A stretch of DNA of 64,000 bases from Nocardioides marmorisolisilvae (GTDB taxonomy: Bacteria > Actinomycetota > Actinomycetes > Propionibacteriales > Nocardioidaceae). Shown piece after piece: positions 28,302 to 61,825 of this stretch. The stretch lies in contig NZ_CP134227.1 in NCBI RefSeq assembly GCF_031656915.1, forward strand, positions 2,604,001 through 2,668,000. The letters are read 5' to 3'. The stretch's first letter is position 1. Each line of letters opens with the position of its first letter. Below the pieces are notes generated by a model that worked only from the letters and a program-made list of their open reading frames with translations, had not been told where the DNA came from and searched no databases. The position numbers and the translations under genes are program-made.

Positions 28302-29660
28302 TCAGGGCGGGGCGTTGCGGGCGATGACATCGGCGTACCAGCGAGCGGAGTCCTTGGGAGTGCGGGACAGGGTGTCGAAGTCGACGTGCACGATCCCAAA
28401 GCGCTTGTCGTAGCCCCACGCCCACTCGAAGTTGTCCAGCAGCGTCCAGAGGTAGTAGCCGCGGACGTCGGCACCGGCCTCGATCGCGTCCCGGACGGCG
28501 GTCAGGTGCTGGTGCAGGTAGTCGATCCGATCCAGGTCATGGACGACGCCCTGACCGTCGGGGAGGTCCGCGCAGGCGGTGCCGTTCTCGGTGACCATCA
28601 TCGGGATGCCGTGGTCACGCTGCACCCGGAGCAGCAGGTCGGTCAGCCCGGACGCCTGGATCGGCCAGCCCATCACCGTGTGCGGACCAGGGATGTCCAC
28701 GAAGCAGGCGCGGTCCGTCCCCGGGTAGGGCGCCAGCCCGGCGGCGGGGGCGCAGATCCGGACCGGGTTGTAGAAGTTCACCCCGAGGAAGTCCAGCGGC
28801 TGACAGATGACCTCGGCGTCCCCGTCGGCGACGAACGACCAGTCGGTGAGGTGCGCGGTCTGCTCCAGCAGCTCGAGCGGGTAGCCGCCACGCAGCATCG
28901 GGTCGAGGAAGATCCGGTTGGCCACGAGGTCGGCGTGCGCAGCGGCGGCGAGGTCCTCGGGCCGGTCGGAGGCGGCCTGCACCTGCTGCAGGTTCAGGGT
29001 CACCGACACCTCGGCACCGGCCGGGAGCGTCGAGCGCAGCGCGGCGGCGGCGCGTCCGTGTGCCAGGTTGAGGTGGTGCGCGGCGCGGTAGGCGAGCGGG
29101 CTGCTGGTGCGTCCCGGCGCGTGCTCGCCCTTCGCGTAGCCGAGGTACGCCGAGCACCACGGCTCGTTCAGGGTGGTGATGGCCGGCACCCGGTCGCCCA
29201 GCTGCTTGCCGACCACGACCGCGAAGTCGGCGAACCGGTCGGCGATGTCCCGATCGAGCCAGCCCCCGGCCTCGCCTACGTCGAGTGCCTGCGGCAGATC
29301 CCAGTGATAGAGCGTGAGCAGCGGGTCGATGCCGCGCTCCAGCATCCCGTCGACGAGCCGGTCGTAGAAGTCGAGCCCGGCCTGGTTGACCGTGCGGCCA
29401 TCCGGCATCACCCGTGGCCAGGCGACAGAGAACCGGTAGGCGGGGATGCCGAGGCTGCGGATCAGGTCGAGGTCCTCGGCCCAGCGGTGGTAGTGGTCGC
29501 AGGCCACGTCGCCGTCGTCGTCGCCATCGATGCGACCCGGCGTGTGGGAGAAGGTGTCCCAGATGCTGGGTCCCCGACCGTCGGCCGCCACCGCGCCCTC
29601 GATCTGGTACGACGCCGAGGCGACGCCCCATCGGAAGCCCTCTGGAAAGCTCGATGTCAT
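28302..29660 (-). CDS. Beta-glucosidase, glycoside hydrolase family 1
   Basis: 452 residues of an intracellular GH1 TIM barrel. The N-terminal signature FPEGFRWGVASASYQIEGAV and QP/Y substrate region are typical. The acid/base glutamate is in TTLNEPWCSAYLGYAKGEHA and the nucleophile glutamate in MMVTENGTA. There is no signal peptide, so it cleaves imported beta-linked disaccharides (cellobiose-like) in the cytoplasm. The ATG overlaps the stop of the upstream permease gene (ATGA), making it the last gene of the sugar-import operon, which explains its substrate supply. 6-phospho-glycosidase activity is less likely because no PTS is present. Confidence 0.94.
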   Translation of the reverse strand: MTSSFPEGFRWGVASASYQIEGAVAADGRGPSIWDTFSHTPGRIDGDDDGDVACDHYHRWAEDLDLIRSLGIPAYRFSVAWPRVMPDGRTVNQAGLDFYDRLVDGMLERGIDPLLTLYHWDLPQALDVGEAGGWLDRDIADRFADFAVVVGKQLGDRVPAITTLNEPWCSAYLGYAKGEHAPGRTSSPLAYRAAHHLNLAHGRAAAALRSTLPAGAEVSVTLNLQQVQAASDRPEDLAAAAHADLVANRIFLDPMLRGGYPLELLEQTAHLTDWSFVADGDAEVICQPLDFLGVNFYNPVRICAPAAGLAPYPGTDRACFVDIPGPHTVMGWPIQASGLTDLLLRVQRDHGIPMMVTENGTACADLPDGQGVVHDLDRIDYLHQHLTAVRDAIEAGADVRGYYLWTLLDNFEWAWGYDKRFGIVHVDFDTLSRTPKDSARWYADVIARNAPP

Positions 29661-30553
29661 CCCTTGACCGCTCCCTGCATGATTCCGCCGACGATCTGCC
29701 GGCCGAGAAGTGCGAAGACGACCAGCACCGGCACCGTCCCGTAGAGGGTGCCGGCCATGATGATCGACTGCTGGGGCGCATAGCCGGTGGCCAGGCTCTG
29801 GAACGAGACCTGCACGGTCGGGTTCTGCGAGCTCAGCACGATGATCGGCCAGAAGAAGTCGTTCCACGACATCAGGAACGTCAGCATCCCCAGCACGGCC
29901 ATCGCAGGCCGCACCGCCGGCACGACGATGGACCGGAAGATCCGGAAGGGTCCGGCGCCGTCCATGTAGCCGGCCTCGATGAGCTCGTCCGGAACCGCGC
30001 TGGCGACGTACTGCCTCATGAAGAACACCCCGAACGCGGTGACCAGGGTCGGCAGGATCACCGCGGAGAGGTGGCCCGCCATGCCGAGCTTGCTCATCAG
30101 CATGTAGAGCGGGATCACGCCCATCTGGGTAGGCACCATCATCGTCGCGATGCAGACCGCGAGCAGCACCTTCGACCCGCGGAAGCGCAGCTTGGCGAAC
30201 GCGAAGCCGGCCAGGGTGCACAGCGCCACCGTGCCGGCGGTGACGCAACCGGAGACGATCACCGAGTTGATGAGCCCCTGGTTCAGCGGCGCGAGGCTCA
30301 GCGCCAGCCTGATGTTGTGCCAGATCGAGCCGTTGGGCAGCCACGGCGGGTTGGCTGCCGCCATCTCGGCGTTGGTGTGCGAGGCCATCACGATCGTGTA
30401 GTAGAGCGGGAAGACCGAGACCACCGTGACGATGCCGACGAGCAGATAGGTGACCCAACCCGCCTTCAGCTGCTGTCCCGCAGCAGTACGGCGGCGACGT
30501 CGCGGCACCACCAGGGCCGTGGTCATCTCGGGGGTCACCCCTTGCGCGCTCAT
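29657..30553 (-). CDS. Carbohydrate ABC transporter permease, MalG type
   Basis: 298 residues with six membrane helices. The EAA loop that docks the ATPase reads ELIEAGYMDGAGPFRIFRSI, then VVPAVRPA, and an N-terminal arginine-rich cytoplasmic tail precedes helix 1 (VTYLLVGIVTVVSVFPLYYT). It forms the channel heterodimer with the MalF-like protein encoded 55 bases upstream. It overlaps the beta-glucosidase start. No ATP-binding subunit is encoded in this operon, so a shared MsmK/MsiK-type ATPase encoded elsewhere is expected. Confidence 0.93.
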   Translation of the reverse strand: MSAQGVTPEMTTALVVPRRRRRTAAGQQLKAGWVTYLLVGIVTVVSVFPLYYTIVMASHTNAEMAAANPPWLPNGSIWHNIRLALSLAPLNQGLINSVIVSGCVTAGTVALCTLAGFAFAKLRFRGSKVLLAVCIATMMVPTQMGVIPLYMLMSKLGMAGHLSAVILPTLVTAFGVFFMRQYVASAVPDELIEAGYMDGAGPFRIFRSIVVPAVRPAMAVLGMLTFLMSWNDFFWPIIVLSSQNPTVQVSFQSLATGYAPQQSIIMAGTLYGTVPVLVVFALLGRQIVGGIMQGAVKG

Positions 30554-30608
30554 CGGGGCCCCCGTCCTGTCGTGCGAACGGGCAGCCGGGAGGCCGTCGT
30601 GGCGGGTC

Positions 30609-31562
30609 TCATCGTCCGGCCCGCTCTCGTCGGCGGGCGAGGAACAGGTTGACCAGCACCGCGACCACGATGATCAGGAACATCGTCCAGGCTGTGGCCG
30701 AGGCAAGGCCGAGCCGATCGTTGGTCCAGCCCTGCTGGTACATCAGCAGGCCGAGCGTCTGGAACTGGTTCGACGTACCCCCGTCGGACTTCCCGTTGTG
30801 GTAGAGCAACGGCTCGCCGAAGAGCTGCGCCGCGCCGATGGTGGAGACCACGATCGTGAAGAGGATCGTGGGCCGCAGGCCGGGCAGGGTGACGTAGCGG
30901 AACTGGGCCCACTTGCCGGCACCGTCGACCGCGGCCGCGTCGTACAGCTCGTTGTCCACGGCCTGCAGGCCGGCGAGGTAGATCAGCGCGTTGTAGCCGG
31001 TCCAGCGCCAGGTCACGATCGCGGAGACCGCGATCTGCGAGGGCCACTTCGACCCCTGCCAGTCGACCTCGGGCAGGTGCGCGAGGTGCAACGCCCAGTT
31101 GACCAGGCCCAGCTTGGGGTCGAAGAGCTCGAGGAAGATCACCGTGGCCGCGGCCAGGCTGGTGGCGTACGGCATCAGGATCGCGACCCGGAAGAAGGTG
31201 CGGCCGCGCAGCCTGTAGTTGAGCAGGTGGGCGATGCCCAGGGCCATGCACAGCTGCGGGACGGTGGAGATGATGCCGATCGTGATCGTGTTGCGGAAGG
31301 CGTTCCAGAAGAACTGGTTGGTGAACAGGTCGCGGTAGTTGCCCAGCCCGATCCAGGTCATCTGGTCGTAGGTCGACAGGCGGACGTCGTGCAGCGACAC
31401 CCAGGCGGTGTCCAGCCATGGGTAGACGCTGAACGCGGCGAAGACGGCGAAGAACGGCAGCACGTACAGATAGGCGATCCGGCTGCCCGGCCGCCGTCGG
31501 CCAGGCGAGCTGCGCCGGCGGGCGGCCCGGGAGGCCGGTCCCGCCGGCGCAGCGACCGACAT
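30609..31562 (-). CDS. Carbohydrate ABC transporter permease, MalF type
   Basis: 317 residues, six helices. The conserved EAA loop is ELYDAAAVDGAGKWAQFRYV, then TLPGLRPT, and the first helix is AYLYVLPFFAVFAAFSVYPW after an arginine-rich tail. It partners the MalG-like permease. Its ATG overlaps the stop of the binding-protein gene (TGATG), so expression is coupled to it. The substrate is most likely a beta-glucoside, judging by the beta-glucosidase in the operon. Confidence 0.93.
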   Translation of the reverse strand: MSVAAPAGPASRAARRRSSPGRRRPGSRIAYLYVLPFFAVFAAFSVYPWLDTAWVSLHDVRLSTYDQMTWIGLGNYRDLFTNQFFWNAFRNTITIGIISTVPQLCMALGIAHLLNYRLRGRTFFRVAILMPYATSLAAATVIFLELFDPKLGLVNWALHLAHLPEVDWQGSKWPSQIAVSAIVTWRWTGYNALIYLAGLQAVDNELYDAAAVDGAGKWAQFRYVTLPGLRPTILFTIVVSTIGAAQLFGEPLLYHNGKSDGGTSNQFQTLGLLMYQQGWTNDRLGLASATAWTMFLIIVVAVLVNLFLARRRERAGR

Positions 31563-32914
31563 CAGCCGGTGACCTGCTTGATCGCCGCCAGTGCGTCGCC
31601 GAAGGCCTTCGTCGGAGCCGTGCCCTTGGTCTCGACGTTGGTCAGCTGGGTGGTGAGCGCCTGCTGGATCTGCGTGTCGTAGAGCCCGATCGGCGGGATC
31701 GACATCTTCGAGGCGATGTCACCGAAGATCTTGCCCACGGGCGCGTTGCTGAAGTAGGCGCTCTTGGCCGTCGCCACCGCCGGGTCGGCCGCCGCGTCGG
31801 AGTTCGACGGGAAGTGACCGCCCTGCTTCCACATGGTGACCTGCTGGTCCTTGGCCGAGAGCCACTCGACGAGAGCGATCGCCGCGGCCTTGTGCTGCGC
31901 CTTGTCCGGCACGCCGAGCCAGGACCCGCCCCAGTTGGTGGCCCCGCCGGGGAGCACCGGAGCGATGTTCCACTTGCCGGCGTACGACGGTCCCGCCTGG
32001 CCCTGGATGTAGCCCATCATCCACGTCGGGCAGGCCAGGGTGGCGAATGCGCCGTTGGAGAAGGCCTTGTTCCAGGTCGGGGAGAACTGCTCGAGGCCGG
32101 CGGTGATCTTGGACTGCGCCGCCTCGGTGGCGTAGTTCCAGGCGCTCTGCACGCCGTCGCTGTTCTTCACGTCCGGCTGGCCGGCGGCGTTGTCGTACGC
32201 CTCCTTGCCCTGGTAGACAGCGGTCGAGAAGACGCTCGCCGCGCTGTCCACGAAGTGCGAGCCCGCCTGCTTGGTCGTGGACGCTTCGTACTGCTTGCCG
32301 AAGTTGATGAAGTCGTTCCAGGTCGACCACTTCTTCGCCAGCGTGGCCGGGTCGGAGGGCAGGCCCGCCTTCTTCAGCAGGTCGCTGCGGTAGCAGATCG
32401 CCTCGGGCCCGATGTCGGTGCCGAGGCCGACCGTGTCGCTGCCGTCGGTGCTGCTGGCCAGCTGCCACTTCCACGGGAAGAACTCGGCCTTGTCGGCGGC
32501 GGCATGGGGGACCTTGTTCCAGTTCACGAACTGGTCGGCGTGGTTCTGCACCACGTCGGCGACGAAGCCGATCTCGATGCCTTGGACGTCGTCGAGACCG
32601 CTGCCGGAGGCGAGCCGGGTCTTCAGCCGGGTCCAGTAGTCGGCCGACTGTTCGACGTCGTCCTCCTTCACCGTGATGTTGGGGCAACGCTTGTGGTAGG
32701 CGTCCCAAAGGCCGGCCTCCTTGAAGCCAAAGGTGCCGAAGAGCCCGACCGTGACGGTCGTCTTGGCGGTGGTCCCGCAGGGCCCGGAGCCGGCTCCTTG
32801 GCCGGCGGCGTCGTTGTTGCCGCTGCTGGAGCCGCAACCGGCGAGCAGCAGGGCGCCGGCGGTCGCGGCAGCGAGTACGGCTGCGGTCCGGCGAGGGTGG
32901 GAACTTCGGCCCAT
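31562..32914 (-). CDS. Sugar-binding lipoprotein of the ABC importer
   Basis: 450 residues of the extracellular solute-binding protein family 1. The signal peptide ends in the lipobox [14 protein letters not shown], so Cys is lipidated and anchors the protein outside the membrane. The binding fold contains TVTVGLFGTFGFKEAGLWDA and WMMGYIQGQAGPSYAGKW, typical of disaccharide-binding proteins. The ATG at 32914 is preceded by an excellent AGGAGG, and the LacI operator palindrome lies immediately upstream. First gene of the operon binding protein - MalF - MalG - beta-glucosidase. Confidence 0.94.
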   Translation of the reverse strand: MGRSSHPRRTAAVLAAATAGALLLAGCGSSSGNNDAAGQGAGSGPCGTTAKTTVTVGLFGTFGFKEAGLWDAYHKRCPNITVKEDDVEQSADYWTRLKTRLASGSGLDDVQGIEIGFVADVVQNHADQFVNWNKVPHAAADKAEFFPWKWQLASSTDGSDTVGLGTDIGPEAICYRSDLLKKAGLPSDPATLAKKWSTWNDFINFGKQYEASTTKQAGSHFVDSAASVFSTAVYQGKEAYDNAAGQPDVKNSDGVQSAWNYATEAAQSKITAGLEQFSPTWNKAFSNGAFATLACPTWMMGYIQGQAGPSYAGKWNIAPVLPGGATNWGGSWLGVPDKAQHKAAAIALVEWLSAKDQQVTMWKQGGHFPSNSDAAADPAVATAKSAYFSNAPVGKIFGDIASKMSIPPIGLYDTQIQQALTTQLTNVETKGTAPTKAFGDALAAIKQVTG

Positions 32915-32930
32915 GGGTGTCCTCCTGGTT

Positions 32931-32946
32931 GTGAGAGCGCTCTCAC
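32931..32946. promoter_or_regulatory. LacI-family operator upstream of the sugar operon
   Basis: GTGAGAGCGCTCTCAC is a perfect 16-bp palindrome centred on the GC step typical of LacI-family sites (TGxxAGCGCTxxCA). It lies 17 bases before the binding-protein start and would overlap the promoter or early transcript. The LacI-type regulator encoded just upstream at 33031-34041 is the obvious repressor. Confidence 0.85.
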
Positions 32947-33030
32947 GCTGGCTCGAGGATGGCTGTGACGGCCACCACATGTCAAGCACCCGAACAAATT
33001 CGACGTCCGATTCGTGACCTGAGGCAACGC

Positions 33031-34041
33031 TCATCCCGTCCCGCGCACCACCAGCTCGACGGGCAGCACCACGTTGGGGTCCGGTACGGCGCCGGTGACC
33101 CTGGCCAGCAGCATCCTGGTCATCGCGCTGCCCAGCGCGCCGACCGGCTGGCGCACGGTGCTCAGCGGCGGCTGGTGCTCGGCCGCGTCACGGATGTCGT
33201 CGAACCCGACCACCGCCACGTCGTCCGGGACCCTGCGCCCGGCGGCGTGCAGCGCCCGGATCGCCCCGAAGGCGGCCAAGTCCGAGCCGGCGAAGATCGC
33301 GTCGACGTCCGGCCGCCGGGCGAGCAGCCGCTCGGTGGCGGCGTACCCCTCGGCGGTGGTGAATCCAGCCGGCTCCACCAGCGACTCGTCCAGGGTCGCC
33401 CCGGACGCGGTGACCGCCTGACGGTAGCCGGTCAGCCGGTCCTGCCCGGCACACATGTCCAGCGCACCGGTCACGGTAGCCACCACCCGTCGCCCTGAGT
33501 CGACCAGGTGCGCGGTCGCGATCCGACCGCCTCCGACGTTGTCGGCGTCGACGTAGAAGAGGCCTCGGGCGTCGTCGAACGGGCGGCCGCTCAGCACCGT
33601 CGGCACGCCCTCGGCCTCCAGGCGGTGCGGTAGGTCGTCGGTGCCGTGCAGGGAGAGCAGCAGCACGCCGTCGACGTGGCCGCCGGCGGCGTACGCGACG
33701 AACCGCTCGCGGTCCTCGGCCCGGGAGACGACCGTGAACACCAGCTGGAGCCCGGCGGCCGCCGTCGCCACCTGCACGGACCGGAGCATGCCCAGGAAGA
33801 ACGGGTCGGCGAACATCCGCTCCTCGGTCTCGTCCACCATGAAGGCGATCGAGTCGCTGCGGCCGGTGACCAGCGACCTGGCGGCGCGGTTCGGCGAGTA
33901 GGACACCTCGTGCGCTGCCGCGTGCACGGCCGCCCGTGCCGCCTCGCTCACGTTCGTCGCACCCCGCAGCACCCGGCTCGCCGTGGCCCGGGAGACGCCT
34001 GCCCGGGCGGCGACCTCCTCGAGCGTCGCGCGCTGGGTCAC
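33031..34041 (-). CDS. LacI-family sugar-responsive repressor
   Basis: 336 residues. The N-terminal helix-turn-helix is ATLEEVAARAGVSRATASRV with hinge LRGATNVSEAARAAVHAAA, and the C-terminal periplasmic-binding-protein-like effector domain runs from about 60 (SDSIAFMVDETEERMFADPF, then FDDIRDAAEHQPPLSTVRQP near the end). It should bind the palindrome at 32931 and release it when its sugar, probably a beta-glucoside or cellobiose, is present. The GTG at 34041 matches the usual start of the helix-turn-helix; the in-frame extension upstream is the repeat array at 34089-34241 and is not protein-like. It is transcribed toward the operon it controls. Confidence 0.92.
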   Translation of the reverse strand: MTQRATLEEVAARAGVSRATASRVLRGATNVSEAARAAVHAAAHEVSYSPNRAARSLVTGRSDSIAFMVDETEERMFADPFFLGMLRSVQVATAAAGLQLVFTVVSRAEDRERFVAYAAGGHVDGVLLLSLHGTDDLPHRLEAEGVPTVLSGRPFDDARGLFYVDADNVGGGRIATAHLVDSGRRVVATVTGALDMCAGQDRLTGYRQAVTASGATLDESLVEPAGFTTAEGYAATERLLARRPDVDAIFAGSDLAAFGAIRALHAAGRRVPDDVAVVGFDDIRDAAEHQPPLSTVRQPVGALGSAMTRMLLARVTGAVPDPNVVLPVELVVRGTG

Positions 34042-34088
34042 GCCCGGAAGTGTGCCACGCCCCTCCCCTGCCCTCCCCCCACATCCGC

Positions 34089-34241
34089 GAGTGGTCCCAA
34101 ATTGTCCGCGAGTGGTCCCAAATCGCGCGGCGAGTGGTCCCACATCGCGCGCCGACTGGTCCGAAGCGGATGCCGCGCGACCGCCACTTGTGACCACTCG
34201 GATGCCCTTTGGGACCATTCGCGCGTCATAGGGGACGTCTC
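34089..34241. repeat. Head-to-head 21-22 bp repeat array between divergent genes
   Basis: Four units with core GAGTGGTCCCA start at 34089, 34110, 34132 and, degenerate, 34154. Three units in the opposite orientation (TGTGACCACTC, TGGGACCATTC, GGGGACGTCTC) start at 34189, 34210 and 34231. Spacing is 21 or 22 bp throughout, two helical turns, and the two groups face each other around 34165-34188. A C-rich tract (34060-34080) flanks one side. The array lies between the LacI gene and the LytS kinase start, so it may bind a protein or affect both promoters. Related copies occur at 49.2, 51.7 and 61.8 kb. Confidence 0.8.
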
Positions 34242-34259
34242 GGCGACTACGGTGCCGTC

Positions 34260-35387
34260 ATGGCGAGGCGACGGACCGGCGGCCTGCTGCGCCGGCACCT
34301 GGGGACAGAGGCGGACCGGGCCACGTTCCACACACTGCACACGGCGTCCCTGATGACCGGTGCGCTGCGCACCGGCCTGACCGCCGAGTCCGCCGAGCGG
34401 TCGGTGCGACATCTGCGGTCGCTGCTCGCCGCGCCCGCGGTGGCGCTGACCGACACCGAGAGGCTGCTCGCCTGGGACGGCCACCATGCGGCGCACGCCG
34501 TCCACGCCGGAGAGCTCGCCCGGCGCGCCGTCGACGACGGGGCGACCACCGTCCTCGACCATGCGGTCTTCCCTTGCGAGGACCCGTACTGCCCCCTGCG
34601 CAAGGCGATCCTGAGCCCGCTGGTGGTCGACGACCGGGTCATCGGCACCCTGCAGGTGTTCGGCGGTCTCGCCTCCGCGGCCCTGGTCCGAGCGACCGAG
34701 GAGGTGGCCGGCTGGGTCTCCGGCCAGCTGGAGCTCGCCGAGCTCGACGCCTCCCGGACCCGGTTGATGGAGGCCGAGGTGCGGGCTCTGCGAGCGCAGA
34801 TCTCACCGCACTTCATCTACAACGCGCTCAACGCCATCGCGTCCTTCGTGCGCACCGACCCCGACCGGGCACGGCAGCTGCTGCTCGACTTCGCGGACTT
34901 CACCCGCTACTCCTTCCAGCGGCACGGCGAGTACACGACGCTCGAGGAGGAGCTCCGCTCCATCGAGCGTTACCTCGTGCTCGAGCAGGCCCGCTTCGGC
35001 GAGCGGCTGCAGGTCACTCTGCGGATCGCGCCGGAGGTGCTCCCGGTCACCGTCCCGGTGCTCTCCGTGCAACCGCTGGTCGAGAACGCGGTTCGCCACG
35101 GGTTGGCACAGAAGGCGGGGACCGGAAGGATCACGATCCTGGCCGAGGACCATGACCGTGAGGCGGTGATCTCCGTGGAGGATGACGGCGTCGGCGAGGA
35201 CCCCGAGCGGGTACGGCGGGCGCTGGCCGGCGACGAGTCCCTCGACAGCGTCGGGCTCGGCAACGTCGACGAGCGGCTGCGCTCAGCGTACGGCGACGAC
35301 TACGGCCTGGTCGTCGAGACCGCCCCCGGTGCGGGCACCAAGGTCACCATGCGGGTGCCGAAGTACGCCGCAGGGGTCCGCCCGTGA
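34260..35387 (+). CDS. Sensor histidine kinase, LytS type
   Basis: 375 residues. No membrane helix is evident. A GAF-like N-terminal domain (about 20-175) is followed by the LytS histidine box RAQISPHFIYNALNAIASFV, then the ATPase with LSVQPLVENAVRHGLAQ (N box), ISVEDDGVG and GLGNVDERLRSAYG. Cytosolic LytS kinases of this kind sense metabolites rather than cell-wall signals. The ATG at 34260 is used because the in-frame upstream sequence is the repeat array. Its stop overlaps the start of the LytTR regulator (GTGA), and the acetate transport genes follow, so it probably senses acetate or a related signal. Confidence 0.9.
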   Translation: MARRRTGGLLRRHLGTEADRATFHTLHTASLMTGALRTGLTAESAERSVRHLRSLLAAPAVALTDTERLLAWDGHHAAHAVHAGELARRAVDDGATTVLDHAVFPCEDPYCPLRKAILSPLVVDDRVIGTLQVFGGLASAALVRATEEVAGWVSGQLELAELDASRTRLMEAEVRALRAQISPHFIYNALNAIASFVRTDPDRARQLLLDFADFTRYSFQRHGEYTTLEEELRSIERYLVLEQARFGERLQVTLRIAPEVLPVTVPVLSVQPLVENAVRHGLAQKAGTGRITILAEDHDREAVISVEDDGVGEDPERVRRALAGDESLDSVGLGNVDERLRSAYGDDYGLVVETAPGAGTKVTMRVPKYAAGVRP

Positions 35388-36145
35388 CCGCACCGGGCAG
35401 CACACCCGCCACCGGCTTGCGAGTGCTGGTCGTCGACGACGAGCGGCCCGCGCTCGACGAGCTCAGCTGGCTGCTCGGCCGCGACGACCGAGTGAGCGCC
35501 GTGTCCGCCTGCGACTCCGCCACAGCGGCGCTGCGGGTGCTCCGGGAGGACCCGGTCGATGCGGTCTTCCTCGACATCGAGATGCCGGGCCTCACCGGCC
35601 TCGAGCTCGCCGACGTGCTGACCCGTTTCAAGGAGCCGCCCGCGATCGTCTTCGTGACCGCGCACGCCGAGCACGCCGTTGACGCCTTCGATCTCCGCGC
35701 GGTCGACTACCTGCTCAAGCCGGTCCGCGAGGAGCGGCTGCGCGAGGCGGTCCGGCGCGTCCTCGACGCAGGCGCGCCCACGCCCGCCGACGACACCATC
35801 CCGGTGGAGCTCGGCGGGGTGACCCGGCTGCTCGCCCGCTCGGAGATCCAGTACGTCGAGGCACAGGGCGACTACAGCCGTCTGCACACCGCCGGGGGCA
35901 GCCACCTGGTCCGGCTGCCGATCTCTGCGCTGGAGGAGCGTTGGGGCCAGACCGGGTTCGTCCGGATCCACCGCTCGTTGCTGGTCTCCCTCAACCATGT
36001 CGACGAGGTGCGCGTCGACGGCGGTCGGTGCTCGGTGATGATCGCCGGCCGGGAGCTGCACGTCAGCCGCCGGCACACGCCGCTCTTGCGCGACCTGCTG
36101 CGCCGCTACCGTCAGGGCGCCGTGGCCGGGACGGTCGACCCGTGA
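35384..36145 (+). CDS. LytTR-family response regulator
   Basis: 253 residues. The receiver domain has VVDDERPALDEL, phosphoacceptor Asp in VDAVFLDIEMPGLTGLELAD and lysine in VDYLLKPV. The C-terminal LytTR DNA-binding domain runs from about 150: IQYVEAQGDYSRLHTAGGSH and FVRIHRSLLVSLNHVDEVRV. It overlaps the kinase by four bases and the next gene by four bases (GTGA). It most likely activates the downstream acetate transport genes, where TAACCC direct repeats at 38248 and 38259 are possible contact points. Confidence 0.9.
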   Translation: MTAPGSTPATGLRVLVVDDERPALDELSWLLGRDDRVSAVSACDSATAALRVLREDPVDAVFLDIEMPGLTGLELADVLTRFKEPPAIVFVTAHAEHAVDAFDLRAVDYLLKPVREERLREAVRRVLDAGAPTPADDTIPVELGGVTRLLARSEIQYVEAQGDYSRLHTAGGSHLVRLPISALEERWGQTGFVRIHRSLLVSLNHVDEVRVDGGRCSVMIAGRELHVSRRHTPLLRDLLRRYRQGAVAGTVDP

Positions 36146-36525
36146 CCGAGTCGCCGCTGCCACGGGTCCGGATCACCAGCCCGCGGACCGGCCGCCCCCG
36201 CCGTACGACGGTCGCCTCGGAGATCGACGCTCAGACCGAGGTCGGTGAGGTCTACATGCGCTCGCTGATGCGCACCCAGCTTCGGCTGGCACTGGGCACG
36301 GTACTGCTCCTCGTCCTGACCGTAGGGGCGTGGCCGGTGGTGTTCGAGGTCTTCCCGGCCGTCCGGCGGGCGCACCTGGCCGGGCTGCCGCTGCCGTGGC
36401 TGTTGCTCGGGTTGCTGGTCTACCCGGTGCTGCTGCTGCTCGCCTGGTCCTACGTACGCCGGGCCGAGCGCAACGAGCAGTCGTTCCACGACCTGGTGGG
36501 GCCAGGAGCCGGGGACGAGCCGTGA
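36142..36525 (+). CDS. DUF485-like small membrane protein
   Basis: 127 residues: a basic N-terminus (RPRRTTVASEIDAQ) then two membrane helices (LALGTVLLLVLTVGAWPVVF and LLLGLLVYPVLLLLAWSYVR) separated by a short loop, ending in an acidic tail. This two-helix pattern fits the DUF485 proteins that are almost always encoded next to sodium:acetate symporters and help assemble or regulate them. Its GTG overlaps the response-regulator stop and it is followed by the ActP-like symporter, so position supports the family call more than sequence does. Confidence 0.7.
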   Translation: MTESPLPRVRITSPRTGRPRRTTVASEIDAQTEVGEVYMRSLMRTQLRLALGTVLLLVLTVGAWPVVFEVFPAVRRAHLAGLPLPWLLLGLLVYPVLLLLAWSYVRRAERNEQSFHDLVGPGAGDEP

Positions 36526-36637
36526 ATCCCCCCACGACATTGCACCCCACGCAGACGCGCTTCGGTCTCCTTTGCCCGGGGACCCCGCGATCCTGCTCAC
36601 CAGCGATGCTCCTGCGCACAATCCCGCGGGGGCCCCG

Positions 36638-38185
36638 GTGAGCGACTGGTTCGCCATCGCCGCGGTGCTCGCGGTGTCGGTGGCCACGCTCGCCGTCGGT
36701 GCGGTGGGACTGCGCATCTCGCGCACGACCAGTGACTTCTACGTGGCGTCGCGCACCGTCGGCTCGGTCGTCAACGCATCGGCGATCAGCGGCGAGTACC
36801 TCTCCGCGGCCTCCTTCCTCGGAGTCGCCGGCCTGGTCCTGCTGCGCGGCGTCGACATGCTCTGGTACCCGGTCGGCTGGACCGCGGGCTACCTGCTCCT
36901 GCTGGTCTTCGTGGCCGCGCCGCTGCGCCGCTCACGTGCGTACACGCTGCCGGACTTCGCCGAGTTCAGGCTCGAGTCGATCGTCACCCGCCGGCTGTCC
37001 AGCGCCCTGGTCGTGCTCATCGGGCTGCTCTACCTGGTTCCACAGTTCCAGGGCGCCGGGCTCACCCTGCGCGCACTCACCGACGCGCCGACCTGGACCG
37101 GCGAGCTCGTGGTCGCGGTGGTGGTGCTCGCCAACGTCGCCGCCGGCGGGATGCGCAGCATCACCATCGCGCAGGCGTTCCAGTACTGGCTGAAGCTGTG
37201 GGCGCTGCTCCTCCCGCTGGCACTCCTGTTGCTGCACTGGCGCGGCGACGGCTCCCCAGGACCGCGGCTCGACGCCTCCGACTGGGTGGAGCCGATGCAG
37301 GGCCACTACGCGACGTACCTGACCTACTCGCTCATTCTCGCCACGTTCCTCGGCACGATGGGTCTGCCCCACGTCGTGGTCCGCTTCTACACCAACCGCG
37401 ACGGCCGCGCCGCCCGCCGTACGACGTTGTCGGTGCTCACGATGCTCAGCGCGTTCTACCTGCTGCCCACCTTGTACGGCGTGCTGGGGCGCATCTACAC
37501 CCCCGATCTGATCGCCTCCGGGCACACCGACTCGGTCGTCCTCGAGCTGCCCGGCCGGCTCCTCGGGGGTGTCGGGGGCGACCTGCTCACCGCGCTGCTG
37601 GGAGCCGGCGCGTTCGCGGCCTTCCTGTCCACCTCCTCGGGCCTGGTCGTCTCGGTGGGCGGGGTGATCGGCCAGGATCTGCTCGGCCGACGCCTTGACG
37701 GGGTGACGGCGTTCCGGGTTGCGGCCACCGGTGCCGCGCTGGCGGCGCTCGTCCTGACCGTGCTGACCTCGGGCCTGGCCGTCGCGCACGCGGTGGAACT
37801 CGCGTTCGCGGTCGCCGCGTCGACCTTCTGCCCGCTGCTGCTGCTCGGGATCTGGTGGCGTGGACTGACCGCTCCCGGGGCGATCGCCGGGCTCCTCGTC
37901 GGCGGGATCAGCTCCTCGACCGCGGTGCTGGCGGTGATGCTGGGCGCCGCGCCGACCGGTCTGTTCGGTGCGGTGGTCAGCCAGCCGGCGCTCTGCACGG
38001 TGCCGGTGGCCTTCGCCACCATGGTCGTCGGATCGCTGCTCACCAAGGGCCACCTGCCGGCGCACCTGGGCCGGACGATGGTGCGGCTGCACACCCCCGA
38101 GGAGATCGTCCTCGACCGCGGCAGCTACCACCCGGAGCGGCGCAGCGGTGACACCAGCGGGACCACGGTCGCCCGTTCGTCGTAG
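36638..38185 (+). CDS. actP: Cation:acetate symporter, SSS family (ActP/MctC-like)
   Basis: 515 residues with about thirteen helices of the sodium/solute symporter family. Signature stretches are SRTTSDFYVASRTVGSVVNA, ISGEYLSAASFLGVAGLVLL, MGLPHVVVRFYTNRDGRAAR, and FAAFLSTSSGLVVSVGGVIG, matching acetate/propionate carriers. The GTG at 36638 (VSDWFAIAAVLAVSVATL) starts directly before helix 1; a TTG at 36572 would add 22 residues. With the DUF485-like protein it forms the high-affinity acetate uptake pair, and acetyl-CoA synthetase follows two genes later. Confidence 0.92.
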   Translation: MSDWFAIAAVLAVSVATLAVGAVGLRISRTTSDFYVASRTVGSVVNASAISGEYLSAASFLGVAGLVLLRGVDMLWYPVGWTAGYLLLLVFVAAPLRRSRAYTLPDFAEFRLESIVTRRLSSALVVLIGLLYLVPQFQGAGLTLRALTDAPTWTGELVVAVVVLANVAAGGMRSITIAQAFQYWLKLWALLLPLALLLLHWRGDGSPGPRLDASDWVEPMQGHYATYLTYSLILATFLGTMGLPHVVVRFYTNRDGRAARRTTLSVLTMLSAFYLLPTLYGVLGRIYTPDLIASGHTDSVVLELPGRLLGGVGGDLLTALLGAGAFAAFLSTSSGLVVSVGGVIGQDLLGRRLDGVTAFRVAATGAALAALVLTVLTSGLAVAHAVELAFAVAASTFCPLLLLGIWWRGLTAPGAIAGLLVGGISSSTAVLAVMLGAAPTGLFGAVVSQPALCTVPVAFATMVVGSLLTKGHLPAHLGRTMVRLHTPEEIVLDRGSYHPERRSGDTSGTTVARSS

Positions 38186-38206
38186 CGATCCGACCGCTCG
38201 TCGCGG

Positions 38207-38222
38207 TGTGACCGCGCACACA
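38207..38222. promoter_or_regulatory. Crp/GlxR-like site upstream of the acetate channel gene
   Basis: TGTGACCGCGCACACA has TGTGA and ACACA half-sites around six bases, nine of ten positions matching TGTGA-N6-TCACA. It lies 110 bases before the SatP start, a usual activator distance. Nearby, TAACCC occurs twice 11 bases apart (38248, 38259), a possible regulator-binding repeat. Binding is inferred from pattern alone. Confidence 0.5.
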
Positions 38223-38331
38223 TCGACGCTTCACTCGCGTTGGGCGATAACCCACCGGTAACCCCTCCCGGGCTCGCCGCCGCCTTCCTAGCCTTCGAGC
38301 AGGCACACCCCCACCCCGTGAGGAGAAGGTC

Positions 38332-38952
38332 ATGTCCCACACCTCGGAGGTCGCCGACTCCGGCGTCCTGCCCCGCGCCCTACCTGGCGCTCACATCGCC
38401 GACCCGGCACCCCTGGGTCTGGCAGCCTTTGCCCTGACCACGTTCGTGCTCAGCTTCGTCAACACCGGCCTGTTCAAGGTCGAGCCCGTCGTCTTCGGGC
38501 TGGCCCTCGCCTACGGCGGCCTCGCCCAGCTGTGCGCCGGCATGTGGGAGTTCGCCAAGGGCAACACCTTCGGCGCGACCGCGTTCGCGTCGTACGGCGG
38601 CTTCTGGATCTCGTTCTGGTGGCTCACCGGGCACTCCGGCCTGGACAAGGTGACCAACGCGAACGACCTGGGCAACAGCCTGGGCCTCTACCTGATCGCC
38701 TGGGCGATCTTCACCGGCTACATGACGATCGCGGCCACCCGGGTCAGCGGCGCGGTGCTGGCTGTGTTCGTGCTGCTGACCATCACGTACATCCTCCTGG
38801 GCATCGGCGAGTTCGCGATGAGCGACACCCTGGGCAAGATCGGCGGTTGGGTCGGCGTGGCCACCGCCCTCGCGGCCTGGTACGCCTCCTTCGGTGGCGT
38901 CACCGCCTTCACCCACAAGAGGGCACTGGTCCCCACCGGCCCCCGGGAGTGA
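38332..38952 (+). CDS. Acetate/succinate uptake transporter, SatP/YaaH family
   Basis: 206 residues with six helices. The family hallmark, normally NPxPLGL at the N-terminus, appears as DPAPLGLAAFALTTFVLSFV; other conserved segments are GGLAQLCAGMWEFAKGNTFG and FASYGGFWISFWW. These small channels let acetate (and succinate) cross at high concentration. A GAGGAGAAGG ribosome site precedes the ATG. With the symporter before it and acetyl-CoA synthetase after it, the operon covers low- and high-affinity acetate entry. A very strong terminator follows. Confidence 0.92.
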   Translation: MSHTSEVADSGVLPRALPGAHIADPAPLGLAAFALTTFVLSFVNTGLFKVEPVVFGLALAYGGLAQLCAGMWEFAKGNTFGATAFASYGGFWISFWWLTGHSGLDKVTNANDLGNSLGLYLIAWAIFTGYMTIAATRVSGAVLAVFVLLTITYILLGIGEFAMSDTLGKIGGWVGVATALAAWYASFGGVTAFTHKRALVPTGPRE

Positions 38953-38969
38953 CGGACCGCTAGTCACCG

Positions 38970-39011
38970 CCAGCACCACGACCCCTTGCCCGTGCGGGGT
39001 CGTGGTGCTGG
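38970..39011 (+). terminator. Perfect 16-bp hairpin terminator after the acetate channel gene
   Basis: CCAGCACCACGACCCC and GGGGTCGTGGTGCTGG are exact complements around a ten-base loop, 18 bases after the SatP stop. It is one of the strongest hairpins in the window and separates satP from acs, which then needs its own promoter at about 39012-39070. Confidence 0.9.
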
Positions 39012-39083
39012 AGTGGTTGGCAACCGATCCAGCGTCCGCACGAGCCCACGACGAGCAGGCAGAACCTAAGGAGACGAGAAACC

Positions 39084-41051
<1,968 letters not shown>

Positions 41052-47412: not shown

Positions 47413-48090
47413 GTGGACAACGACGTACTCCGCCAGGCGCCGCTCTTCAGCGCGCTCGATGACGAGGCCGCCGCAGCGCTGCGGTCCTCGATGGGCGAGA
47501 CCAAGCTTCGGCGCGGCGAGGTGCTCTTCCGCGAGGGCGACTCGGGCGACAAGCTCTACATCGTCGTCGACGGCAAGGTGAAGCTCGGCCGGACCTCGTC
47601 CGACGGTCGGGAGAACCTCCTCGCGATTCTGGGCCCTGGCCAGATGTTCGGCGAGCTCTCGCTCTTCGACCCGGGCCCGCGCTCGGCGACCGTGACAGCC
47701 GTGACCGAGGCGCAGTTCCTCTCGCTCTCCCACGAAGACCTGATGCGCTGGCTGGCCGGGAGGCCCGCCGTGGCGCTGGGGCTGCTGTCCCAGATCGCCA
47801 GCCGGTTGCGCAAGTCCAACGACGTGGTGGCCGACCTGGTGTTCTCCGACGTGCCCGGCCGGGTCGCCAAGGCGCTGCTCGACCTCGCGGACCGGTTCGG
47901 CCGGACCGCCGACGACGGTGTGCACGTGCATCACGACCTCACCCAGGAGGAGCTGGCCCAGCTCGTGGGCGCCTCCCGGGAGACCGTCAACAAGGCGCTG
48001 GCCGACTTCGCCTCTCGCGGCTGGCTCCGCCTCGAGCCCCGCTCCGTGGTGATCATGGACGTCGAGCGGATGAAGCGCCGCGCTCGTTGA
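47413..48090 (+). CDS. crp: Crp/Fnr-family global regulator (GlxR/Rv3676-like)
   Basis: 225 residues. The cyclic-nucleotide-binding domain has LRRGEVLFREGDSGDKLYIV, the cAMP contact region GQMFGELSLFDPGPRSATVT with glutamate and arginine, then a long dimer helix and a winged helix-turn-helix in LTQEELAQLVGASRETVNKA. This is the cAMP-responsive Crp of mycobacteria and corynebacteria (Rv3676/GlxR) that balances carbon metabolism. The GTG at 47413 gives the usual family length. Candidate binding sites occur in this window upstream of dctA, hppA and satP, so this gene may control its own neighbourhood. Confidence 0.94.
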   Translation: MDNDVLRQAPLFSALDDEAAAALRSSMGETKLRRGEVLFREGDSGDKLYIVVDGKVKLGRTSSDGRENLLAILGPGQMFGELSLFDPGPRSATVTAVTEAQFLSLSHEDLMRWLAGRPAVALGLLSQIASRLRKSNDVVADLVFSDVPGRVAKALLDLADRFGRTADDGVHVHHDLTQEELAQLVGASRETVNKALADFASRGWLRLEPRSVVIMDVERMKRRAR

Positions 48091-48131
48091 GTGGGGCGTT
48101 CTGGTCCGTCGAATGCTGACTTGTTGCCCGG

Positions 48132-49076
48132 TCAATCGGGGATTCGGGTCCAACGCAGCCGCCTGGTCCGTGGCCGGAGCGCCGCCCGAAGCTCGCTGAG
48201 CCACGCGTCCGGGTCCGGCCCGCTGACCCCGTCCTTGTCGACCACGATCACGGTCCAGCCGTGCTCGCGGAGCCACTTTCTCCGCGTGCGATCCCGCGCC
48301 TTCTGCTCCTCGGTACGGCGATGGAACTCCTCCCCGTCGTACTCCACCGCGACACGATGCTTCGGGTAGGCGAGGTCGAGGCGGTACGTCGGCACCCCGT
48401 CTATCTCGATCCAGTACTGGAGCTCCGGGACCGGCAGCCCGGCGTCATGGATGTCCAGCCGGATCCACGACTCACGCATCGACTCCGACCGACCGTCGGC
48501 AAGCGCGACCAAGCCACGGAGTTGGACCACTCCGCGCCGGCGGAAGTAGCGCGGCAGCTGTCGCTCCATCTGCTCACGGGTGATCCCGTGGACACGGACG
48601 AACCCGTCCAGGGCGCCCAGGGCGCGGTGCCGGCCCAGGGCGCAGCCGAGGTCCAATGCGGTGCGCAGCGGCGTCGTGACCCAGACACCCAGGATCTGCG
48701 CCAGGTCCTCCGACCGCAGATCGCGGGTTCGACCATCCACGCCTGACCGGTTCGAGGGCGCATGACCGCGGAGCACGCAGGTCTCCACCGGAGGCAGGAC
48801 CGCCGTGTCGGCGTACCCGAAGACGTTGACGTCGTGGAGCCAGGCTGCGGTGCGGTCGCAGACGACGGACTGTGGACTGACCACCAGCGCGGCCGCGCGC
48901 ACCCGGAGCTCGACCGTGTCGGTTGCGTCGGCAGCGACGTACACGCCGCGCAGCACCCGCCGCACGAGGCCGTTGCGGACCGCGTCTCGCAGCCGGCGGT
49001 CGGTGATGCCGAGGCGGCGCGCTTCGGCCAGGGTGAAGGGCGTGTAGGGAACATCGGAGTGCATCTTGAGGACCAT
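48132..49076 (-). CDS. AbiEi-type winged-helix protein with C-terminal DUF559 nuclease fold
   Basis: 314 residues. The N-terminal 60 residues (TLAEARRLGITDRRLRDAVR and NGLVRRVLRGVYVAAD) are the AbiEi antitoxin-like winged helix. The C-terminal part has EYDGEEFHRRTEEQKARDR, WLREHGWTVIVVDKDGVSGP and the PD-(D/E)xK-like core of DUF559 proteins, a Vsr-related endonuclease fold. No AbiEii toxin gene is adjacent, so it is an orphan; related proteins of this size are abundant in Nocardioides and may be innate nucleases or regulators. An internal ATG four codons downstream is an alternative start. GC and codon use look native. Confidence 0.8.
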   Translation of the reverse strand: MVLKMHSDVPYTPFTLAEARRLGITDRRLRDAVRNGLVRRVLRGVYVAADATDTVELRVRAAALVVSPQSVVCDRTAAWLHDVNVFGYADTAVLPPVETCVLRGHAPSNRSGVDGRTRDLRSEDLAQILGVWVTTPLRTALDLGCALGRHRALGALDGFVRVHGITREQMERQLPRYFRRRGVVQLRGLVALADGRSESMRESWIRLDIHDAGLPVPELQYWIEIDGVPTYRLDLAYPKHRVAVEYDGEEFHRRTEEQKARDRTRRKWLREHGWTVIVVDKDGVSGPDPDAWLSELRAALRPRTRRLRWTRIPD

Positions 49077-49200
49077 GCACGCCGGACCGACGTCCAGCCC
49101 TCGGATCGGCCCGGGCCTGTGGAAGACGGCTGGGGTTCACCATCTGTGGGCGTGGAACGGCCGCTCGACCGCGGTGCCCGTCAACAGGGCTCGCCTGTCG

Positions 49201-49266
49201 CGAACCCCCAACTCAATGGACGGCAATCCACCACTCACCGGACACGAACCCCCAACTCAACGCGTG
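49201..49266. repeat. Three 22-bp repeat units between the MBL and AbiEi genes
   Basis: TTGAGTTGGGGGTTCG (minus strand) occurs at 49201-49216 and 49245-49260, exactly 44 bp apart, with a diverged unit of 22 bp between them (GAGTGGTGGATTG on the minus strand). The second copy overlaps the MBL gene stop codon. The intervening unit and the GTCC motif link it to the GAG..GTCCCA family at 34.1, 51.7 and 61.8 kb. No promoter or hairpin is apparent here. Confidence 0.6.
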
Positions 49267-50063
49267 CGGAGGAACTCCAGCTGGGCGCGCACGGAGAGTT
49301 CGGCGGCGGGCCAGAGGACGGGGTCGACGTCGGTGTAGACGATCTCGACGACCCTGCGGGGGAGCTCGTCCGCGGCGATGCCCTCGGGAAGCGGTTCGCG
49401 GCGGAGCTGGTCCAACGCGTCGCGCACCTGCTCCAGACGCTCGTGTCGGTGGGCGATGTAGTGGTCGAGCGCCGGCAGGGCCTGCTCGATCACGGGGCCG
49501 TGACCGGGCCAGATCGTCGCGACCTCGTTCGCCTCCGCCAGCGCGTGCAGCCGATCGAGCGAGTCCAGATAGGCACCGAGCTGCCCGTCCGGGTGGGCGA
49601 CCACGGTCGTGCCCCGACCGAGCACGGTGTCCCCGGTGAGGACGGCGCCGTCGGCCGGCACCAGGAACGACAGCGAGTCGGCGGTGTGTCCGGGGGTGCC
49701 GACCACGCGGATCTCGAGACCGTCGACCTCGACCACGTCGCCGTCCCCGAGGCCCTCCTCACCCAGTCGGTACGCCGGGTCCAGCGCCCGCACTCCGCAT
49801 CCCATCCGCTCGGCGAACCCACGGGCGGCCTCGGAGTGGTCGAGGTGGTGGTGGGTCAGCAACACCGCCGCCACGTCGCCCGCGACCGCGGCGACCGCGT
49901 CGAGGTGGCCGGGGTCGGGTGGACCGGGGTCGATCACCACCGATCGGCGGCCACCCGGCTCGCGCAGCACCCAGGTGTTGGTGCCGTCGAGCGTCATGAT
50001 GTTGGCGTTGGGGGCGAGCACACACTGCGCACGCTCCCCGAACGGCCCGCCCGACCAGGTCAT
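49257..50063 (-). CDS. Metallo-beta-lactamase fold hydrolase (Rv3677c counterpart)
   Basis: 268 residues. Metal ligands are the HxHxDH motif in AVLLTHHHLDHSEAARG, the His in VGTPGHTADSLSFLVPADGA, and Asp in LTGDTVLGRGTTVVAHPDG, giving a di-zinc hydrolase of the glyoxalase-II/LACTB2-like group. A winged-helix-like C-terminus follows. The substrate is not identifiable. Its ATG overlaps the stop of the second Nudix gene (ATGA), and a 22-bp repeat cluster overlaps its own stop. M. tuberculosis keeps the same order with Rv3678c upstream. Confidence 0.88.
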   Translation of the reverse strand: MTWSGGPFGERAQCVLAPNANIMTLDGTNTWVLREPGGRRSVVIDPGPPDPGHLDAVAAVAGDVAAVLLTHHHLDHSEAARGFAERMGCGVRALDPAYRLGEEGLGDGDVVEVDGLEIRVVGTPGHTADSLSFLVPADGAVLTGDTVLGRGTTVVAHPDGQLGAYLDSLDRLHALAEANEVATIWPGHGPVIEQALPALDHYIAHRHERLEQVRDALDQLRREPLPEGIAADELPRRVVEIVYTDVDPVLWPAAELSVRAQLEFLRTR

Positions 50064-51595: not shown

Positions 51596-52417
51596 GTGAC
51601 CGATCCGCGGCTGCCCGACCACGTGCTGCGGTACGCCGACCACGCGGACGGGGTGCTCGACGTACACCTCCCTCGGGCGACCACCACTCGTGACGTCTCG
51701 GCGCACCAGATGGGACGCCTCGGCGCGCCAGATGGGACGTCTCGGCGGCGGGACAAGGTGGTGATGCTGCTGCACGGGGGGTTCTGGAAGCAGGAGTGGG
51801 ACCGCACCCACACCCGAAACCTCGCGCGGGCCCTGGCCGACGAGGGCCACGTGGTCGCGACCCCGGAGTACCGGCGGGTGGGCGGGGGCGGCGGCTGGCC
51901 CACGACCTGCGAGGACGTGGGTGACGCCCTGGCGGCGCTGCCCGACCTGCTGGGCACCCTCGGGGTGCAGCTCGGCCCGGTGGACGTGGTCGGGCACTCT
52001 GCCGGCGGACACCTGGCACTGTGGCTCGCGAGCGAGCCGGTTCACGCTGGACATGCGCCGCCCCGCCCGCACCCACGGATCGGCCACGTCGTGGCTCTCG
52101 CACCCGTCAGCGACCTCCGGGCGGCAGCCGCACGGCACCTCGGCGACGACGCGACCCAGCGGTTCATGGGCGGCCCTCCCGACGAGGTGGACTACGACCC
52201 CGCCGACCCGATGATCCGGCTGGCACGGCGACCGGACTGCGCGGTCACGGTGATCCACGGCAGCCTCGACGACGCGGTCCCGCTCGGGCTGAGCCGAGAC
52301 CTGGTCACCGCCCACCCCTGGATCCGGCTCGTCCAGCCCCAGGTGGGCCACTACGAGCTGATCGACCCCGCAGGTGCGACGTACCCCACACTGCTGGAGG
52401 GACTCAAAGGTAGTTGA
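51596..52417 (+). CDS. Alpha/beta hydrolase with repeat-derived insertion near the N-terminus
   Basis: 273 residues. The oxyanion motif is MLLHGGFWKQEWDRTHTRNL, the nucleophile elbow VVGHSAGGHLALWLA, acid VIHGSLDDAVPLGLSRDL, and the final His in VQPQVGHYELIDP, resembling kynurenine formamidase-like or BD-FAE esterases. Residues about 27-52 (TTTRDVSAHQMGRLGAPDGT, then SRRRDK) are encoded by the 22-bp repeat array at 51689-51743 and sit just before the catalytic core, where homologues are shorter. The GTG at 51596 is taken as start; one at 51557 would add 13 residues. Substrate unknown. Confidence 0.8.
   Translation: MTDPRLPDHVLRYADHADGVLDVHLPRATTTRDVSAHQMGRLGAPDGTSRRRDKVVMLLHGGFWKQEWDRTHTRNLARALADEGHVVATPEYRRVGGGGGWPTTCEDVGDALAALPDLLGTLGVQLGPVDVVGHSAGGHLALWLASEPVHAGHAPPRPHPRIGHVVALAPVSDLRAAAARHLGDDATQRFMGGPPDEVDYDPADPMIRLARRPDCAVTVIHGSLDDAVPLGLSRDLVTAHPWIRLVQPQVGHYELIDPAGATYPTLLEGLKGS
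51689..51743. repeat. 22-bp repeat array inside the alpha/beta hydrolase gene
   Basis: Units at 51689, 51711 and 51733 are 22 bp apart: CGTGACGTCTC, TGGGACGCCTC and TGGGACGTCTC, with GGCGC-CAGA between. In the opposite orientation they read GAGACGTCCCATCTGGCGCG, GAGGCGTCCCATCTGGTGCG and GAGACGTCACGAGTGGTGGT. The last of these matches the terminal unit of the 34-kb array (GAGTGGTCACAAGTGGCGGT) except for a few bases. The array is in frame (each unit is 22 bp, so the frame shifts per unit, yet no stop arises). Confidence 0.8.
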
Positions 52418-61725: not shown

Positions 61726-61781
61726 CCTCCCCACCCCGCTCGCCCTCCCCCTCCCCCTCCCCACCCCCCGTCCGTCCCCGC

Positions 61782-61825
61782 GAGTGGTCCCAAATTGCGC
61801 GCCGAGTGGTCGCCCATGCGGGGCG
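61782..61825. repeat. Two 22-bp repeat units after a C-rich tract
   Basis: GAGTGGTCCCAAATTGCGCG begins at 61782 and GAGTGGTCGCCCATGCGGGG at 61804, spaced 22 bp, matching the units of the 34-kb array. A C-rich, purine-poor tract (about 61743-61779) precedes them, as it does at 34.05-34.08 kb. The stretch between the metallophosphoesterase stop and tRNA-Pro holds no gene. Confidence 0.7.

Follow-up and report, generated by a model that had tools for sequence, protein, structure and literature searches.

The stretch analysed here (the window) comprises 64,000 nucleotides, positions 2604001-2668000 of the 4.23-Mb, single-contig genome of Nocardioides marmorisolisilvae (G000). At 34085-34245 it carries an array of short repeat units facing each other, which lies between the start codons of a LacI-family repressor gene and a LytS-like sensor kinase gene. 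A second locus, 48085-49262, holds a gene for a nuclease with an AbiEi-like part and a DUF559 domain, enclosed by two arms of repeat units in the order forward array, gene, inverted array (Table 1). The array at 34085-34245 is probably a solo array, a copy of the arms of such a nuclease element without the gene.

Table 1. Repeat arrays, the nuclease element and neighbouring genes in the window
Feature	Position	Strand	Remarks
Forward arm of solo array	34085-34171	+	4 units, CGAG (last CGAC) starts at 34088, 34109, 34131, 34153
Approximate centre between arms	34172-34181	.	Nuclease gene occupies the corresponding place in full elements
Inverted arm of solo array	34182-34245	-	3 degenerate units with cores of the GACCACTCG type (34192-34200, 34213-34221, 34234-34242)
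Left arm of full element	48085-48128	+	Two degenerate 22-bp units; first contains crp stop codon (48088-48090)
AbiEi-like/DUF559 (Vsr, I-Bth0305I-like) nuclease gene	48132-49064	-	Pfam matches over cut-off to AbiEi_4 and DUF559, under it to MTES_1575; alternative start 49076
TCCACAGG DnaA-box-like motif	49116-49123	-	About 59 bp upstream of start codon
Right arm of full element	49197-49262	-	Three 22-bp units; outermost contains stop codon of MBL-fold gene
MBL-fold gene	49257-50063	-	Pfam Lactamase_B
One-sided solo array	51692-51744	-	Units 22 bp apart, in frame within alpha/beta-hydrolase ORF (51611-52417)
One-sided solo array, two units	61781-61817	+	56 bp past stop codon (61725)
LacI-family repressor gene	33031-34041	-	Pfam LacI, Peripla_BP_3; gene of the ABC/beta-glucosidase operon nearest lytS; start codon inferred
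LytS-like sensor kinase gene	34260-35387	+	Pfam His_kinase PF06580
LytTR gene	35384-36145		

Arrays in the window and in the genome

The first three forward units of the array contain exact copies of GAGTGGTCCCA (34089, 34110 and 34132), whereas the fourth reads GACTGGTCCGA (34154) and has two mismatches. In the inverted arm the units are GAGTGGTCACA (34189), GAATGGTCCCA (34210) and GAGACGTCCCC (34231). Successive units are spaced by 21, 22 and 22 bp in the forward and by 21 and 21 bp in the inverted arm. The four forward and three inverted units described by the original prediction are thus a real array, with the reservation that the fourth unit is altered and the inverted ones are degenerate. 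GAGNNGTCCCA occurs seven times in the window compared to 1.02 +/- 1.08 times in 100 dinucleotide shuffles, none of which reached seven, and pairs of the form GAGTGGTC-N12..14-GAGTGGTC were found 14 and 13 times on the two strands of the genome, with no match for the reversed-pattern control. Single matches to the short pattern weigh little, because their number (54+28) is near that of the control (29+27). Of the three further window loci at which the units were said to recur, 51692-51744 and 61781-61817 are arrays and 19969 is a single match.

A mismatch search together with the extracted sequences gave 15 loci with arrays of CGAGTGGTC-like units in G000, with a period of 21 and sometimes 22 bp. 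Eight are head-to-head (at 465.7, 1753.7, 2103.8, 2638.1, 2909.7, 3501.4, 3814.9 and 4013.0 kb, the fourth being the array at 34085-34245) and seven are one-sided (1796.4, 2488.5, 2493.8, 2655.7, 2665.8, 2709.1 and 3133.0 kb). Their outer units often begin with CCGC; by eye no other common outer end was seen.

Most of these arrays adjoin the ends of genes. With genes judged by codon-position GC, a side of an array was counted if a stop codon lay within 60 bp and the gene ran towards the array. Such sides number 15 of 30 for G000 and 73 of 138 for a further eight genomes, whose 69 arrays include some arms of gene-containing elements, while random placement of the 84 arrays gave about 5.6 (maximum 13 in 300 draws). 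Stop codons at both sides were found for 25 of the 84 arrays, compared to 0.37 expected (maximum 3). At least one such side is present in 11 of the 15 G000 arrays, and the array at 34085-34245 with its two start codons is an exception.

Three G000 arrays form part of open reading frames (ORFs) and keep the frame; the ORFs are those of MenD (L072:9973-10030), a HutF-like amidohydrolase (L075:3042-3094) and the alpha/beta-hydrolase listed in Table 1. In comparisons with PDB relatives the repeat-coded stretch of MenD is left unaligned, and the HutF alignment starts inside the repeat-coded stretch. To judge by the reading frame alone, an array was likely inserted in frame into MenD and HutF. The two in-frame arrays with a 22-bp period encode the similar peptides HRMGPLGAPDGT and HQMGRLGAPDGT.

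A nuclease gene between phased arms

Related genomes were searched with R1, a model of a tandem pair of units that uses sequence alone and was built from 36 sequences. R1 matched in 85 of 335 genomes of the family, with at least six matches in 29, while 13 of the 24 genomes of the genus had no match. Because R1 favours GAGTGGTC cores, a genome without a match does not necessarily lack arrays; three such genomes (G007, G016, G020) contain full elements at the crp site described below. Sixty loci extracted from eight genomes have a like layout, mostly with a 22-bp period, and some are one-sided. Eight loci with widely spaced arms were inspected, and in three of them (L161, L191, L198) the arms enclose a single gene of about 1 kb, which encodes an AbiEi-like/DUF559 protein; the gene in L198 was assigned by its C-terminus and a homologue search.

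The protein has an AbiEi-like fold over residues 1-190, with likeness to AbiEi (6y8q), and a C-terminal domain with the Vsr/PD-(D/E)XK catalytic fold, like I-Bth0305I (3r3p). Residues E198, D230, E241, H248 and D258 are invariant in 52 proteins and may correspond to the EDxHD motif. When at most six candidates were scored per genome, homologues at E<=1e-60 were present in 101 of the 335 family genomes. They occur in 22 of the 29 genomes with at least six R1 matches and in 79 of the 306 others, a comparison which assumes the same draw and ignores kinship.

The full copy of the window is located between crp and the MBL-fold gene, and the stop codon of each of these genes falls within the outermost unit on its side. 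While crp was found in all 24 genus genomes, the nuclease gene follows it in nine (G000, G003, G007, G011, G012, G013, G016, G017, G020) according to tblastn, with array units beside crp as seen by eye. At the same site G005 shows, again to the eye, array-like units but no gene. For the 14 remaining genomes tblastn gave no nuclease gene at the crp site, and none of the 13 sequences inspected there contained a visible array; in G019 the convergent neighbours adjoin each other directly. Both occupied and empty sites exist in the genus. Upstream of the AbiEi-like/DUF559 genes a TCCACAG motif was found within 160 bp in 52 of 77 loci (L239-L318), preferentially at about 58 and 85 bp; this motif, like TCCACAGG, resembles a DnaA box.

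The flanks of these genes are periodic. For 31 gene loci the best period was 21 or 22 bp, with a score of at least 28, in 50 of 62 flanks, compared to one of 30 flanks of lytS loci and none of 60 G000 segments, and all 23 loci in which both sides were clear had the identical period on both. In a second, partly overlapping set, the 80 best of 300 relatives with 157 flanks of sufficient length, 126 flanks were periodic (z>=5.5), compared to one of 152 control segments located 1.0-1.4 kb away. Over all 157 flanks, weak ones included, the best periods were 22 (84 flanks), 21 (32), 32 (14), 44 (6), 31 (4) and 42 bp (4), with 13 others. Both flanks were available for 77 loci, and in 58 of them each flank passes (pass counts taken from rounded values); 51 of the 58 have the same best period and seven differ, six by doubling or one base and one with 33 versus 22 bp. 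The right flank of L299 is a long arm in which 12 similar 22-bp units were detected.

The periods 21/22 and 31/32 bp equal two or three helical turns. This clustering indirectly bears out the idea that a DNA-binding protein may occupy one face of the helix. On the protein tree the 11 rows with 31/32 bp need a single change, compared to 9.0 in shuffles, with period labels taken from a noisier first arm detection; they belong to one clade of 14 proteins (support 100/99), which also holds L300, L311 and L316. A paralogue of the nuclease gene in G000 (L207, G000:C1:48487-49320, + strand) is one of the 11 rows and falls in this clade, and by eye it is accompanied by inward-facing 32-bp (three-turn) repeats with the core CGAGGCGGC.

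In general the units follow YGAG-N2-G-N-C and are otherwise variable, although YGAG and the G at +6 are partly built into this consensus because the phasing rule favours them. In 65 confidently phased loci of the 77 proteins, the cores of the left and right arm share a mean identity of 0.564, compared to 0.343 +/- 0.011 after permutation (maximum 0.391 of 5000); the noisier detection (78 loci) had given 0.425 versus 0.319. When the solo arrays of eight genomes were compared with the gene arms of the same genomes, the true pairing was the best of all 40320, and the own genome was the best match in six of eight, the exceptions being G286 and G000. This set had been found with R1, the gene-arm units were copied by eye, and the solo units of G000 come from six of its 15 arrays. 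That cores differ from locus to locus, as noticed in the window, was confirmed, and they differ between species as well, since the similar arrays of related Nocardioidaceae have cores of their own. A separate homogenisation of each array, as suggested before, gains indirect support from the cores shared by left and right arms and from the likeness of solo arrays and gene arms. In distance tests, differences between cores correlate with differences in the middle and in the nuclease part of the protein (Mantel r 0.275 and 0.271).

Interpretation and rival readings

We give a probability of roughly 60% to the reading that the array at 34085-34245 is a solo copy of the arms of the nuclease element. 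The steps of the underlying mechanism are proposed on the basis of fold and geometry: the AbiEi-like protein would bind successive units cooperatively on one DNA face, and the Vsr-like nuclease would break the DNA in arrays or close to them. Repair of such breaks by recombination among arrays could then spread the arrays to sites after stop codons, keep units and arms alike, and also move the gene into array centres in a homing-like manner. Solo arrays would be empty sites or deletion derivatives. The association of arrays and gene is strong in the relatives and weaker in G000 itself, and because no cognate gene is recognisable in G000, its solo arrays may be relics or may be used in trans.

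Several observations weigh against this reading. The gene arms of G000 (GAGTTGGGG, 22 bp) are unlike its own solo arrays (GAGTGGTCCC, mostly 21 bp; core 0.44), and among the other G000 homologues, of a profile search that found three good and two weak ones, none has arms of the solo-array type. The gene arms of G286 match solo arrays of other genomes better than its own. Five of the eight widely spaced array pairs enclose different genes or are separate arrays (L187, L177, L200, L166 and L172, with a kinase-like gene in L187), and seven genomes with at least six R1 matches (G001, G338, G092, G087, G140, G065, G297) had no homologue at E<=1e-60 among the at most six candidates scored in each. 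The preference of R1 for GAGTGGTC cores biases the genome counts, the set of extracted loci and the comparison of solo arrays with gene arms. In ten of the 77 loci neither side reaches z>=5.5, and three of these, L300, L311 and L316, have no turn-like period on both sides and no clear array; 21 bp, being a multiple of three, is moreover the most frequent best period among coding controls (25 of 152), of which only one passes. For the winged-helix part (residues 1-48) the correlation with the core is very weak (Mantel r 0.065, p 0.046) and becomes -0.027 (p 0.735) once the middle part is controlled for, so the test does not support the idea that this part by itself reads the core. Finally, the proteins from the crp site are clustered in the tree (2 changes versus 9.8), which speaks for much vertical inheritance; the distribution at this site looks largely vertical, with losses.

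A serious rival is a host role of the arrays, as operators of the AbiEi-like protein that silence or border convergent genes or end their transcription without being selfish; the nuclease would then act elsewhere, for example on invading DNA, and the arrays would be sinks or marks of self. AbiEi antitoxins bind inverted operator repeats cooperatively, and the helical phasing, the 25 arrays with stop codons on both sides and the strong predicted RNA folds (z -4.02 for the array at 34085-34245 if transcribed, -9.89 for a second array) would suit such a role. A strong fold, however, is expected of any head-to-head array. The RNA fold considered in the original prediction is possible in view of these values and leaves the seven one-sided arrays unexplained. 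Against a host role, arrays of the GAGTGGTC type were undetected in 13 of 24 genus genomes with R1, which misses other cores such as those of G007, G016 and G020; three arrays lie inside ORFs, and 15 of the 24 crp sites are without the gene. On balance we regard a host role as unlikely.

Considerably less probable is a spread by a transposase, with the arrays as miniature elements or REP-like palindromes and the DUF559 gene as a passenger. The dispersed solo copies with inverted arms, the in-frame copies in coding genes and the coexistence of forms with and without the gene are what such a process would leave. However, one nuclease family recurs between the arms, and the RAYT family (PF01797, Y1_Tnp), the transposase family that was searched, was found in none of the 24 genus genomes, compared to five of 14 control genomes; the RAYT/REP candidate was rejected. 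Nor was a target duplication seen when the outer flanks were compared by eye, not systematically, which counts against a classical transposon and also against the nuclease element. A viral origin received no support either, as a scan of viral contigs gave 62 pattern matches, of which one was a weak relative (29% over residues 227-277).

The arrays might also be binding sites of a LytTR response regulator, by which the adjoining lytS/lytTR pair controls itself and a regulon through 9-bp direct repeats 21 bp apart. LytTR proteins bind 9-bp repeats separated by 12-13 bp, and the BtsR motif is ACC(G/A)CT(C/T)A; this geometry and motif resemble GACCACTCG, and a LytTR gene is nearby. The 21-bp period made this candidate attractive, and it was dropped because no array was seen upstream of lytS in the 16 relatives read. 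As, moreover, 11 of the 15 G000 arrays adjoin stop codons and similar arrays flank nuclease genes, we consider it highly improbable.

Among known systems, the EDxHD Vsr-like homing endonucleases such as I-Bth0305I share the fold of the C-terminal domain and the location of the gene, which sits centrally within the presumed recognition region. In contrast to them, the window copy is free-standing between crp and the MBL-fold gene, outside an intron or intein, its protein has an N-terminal AbiEi-like half, and the presumed recognition region is a repeat array with solo copies. The type IV toxin-antitoxin system AbiE is similar in the AbiEi-like fold and the AbiEi_4 match, but here the domain is fused to a nuclease, and no gene for an AbiEii nucleotidyltransferase is present beside the window copy. 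BOX, BIME/REP and Rickettsia palindromic elements are modular dispersed repeats, and like the arrays they are intergenic, partly in frame, palindromic and variable in unit number; the arrays stand apart by their helical period of 21/22 or 31/32 bp and the nuclease gene between the arms, and no RAYT was found in the 24 genus genomes. Tn7/Mu-type ends, with their repeated 22-bp transposase sites, likewise have several sites of about 22 bp facing inward at both ends, whereas the arms of solo arrays are tens of bp apart and no defined termini were seen by eye.

A tentative and more far-reaching proposal, which we would put at somewhat less than even odds, is that these loci represent a new class of bacterial element: an AbiEi-nuclease gene within inward-facing, helically phased arrays, whose unit changes in concert across both arms and the solo arrays while the nuclease makes the arrays to which it binds spread and become uniform. 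If so, self-matching binding sites that evolve fast would have an example in bacteria, and the dispersed intergenic repeats of actinobacteria would gain a mechanism. A little-known nuclease family with several copies per genome, DUF559 with an AbiEi-like domain, would also be tied to a visible DNA target, and the numerous proteins naturally paired with their arrays would allow the evolution of specificity to be studied.

The lacI-lytS neighbourhood

The original prediction had regarded the promoter region between lacI and lytS as a meaningful setting of the array, which could not be upheld. At E<=0.001 a LytS match was present in 19 of the 24 genomes of the genus, that in G005 being weak, and the upstream regions were read in 16 relatives, leaving out G022 in which the match begins at a contig end. 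In 15 of the 16, lytS is located at most about 80 bp downstream of a methyltransferase gene, with L097 having another gene upstream, and no array was seen upstream of lytS in any of them. In G000 the methyltransferase gene ends at 28274, and an operon of beta-glucosidase, ABC sugar transporter and LacI genes (28302-34041) separates it from lytS; the array marks the lytS-side end of this operon. The promoter setting appears to be incidental, and 11 of the 15 G000 arrays adjoin a stop codon rather than lying in a promoter. Downstream, the row at 34260-41051 comprises the LytS-like kinase, the LytTR regulator, a sodium:solute symporter, a GPR1/FUN34/YaaH transporter and an acetyl-CoA synthetase, and is possibly an acetate-sensing cluster.
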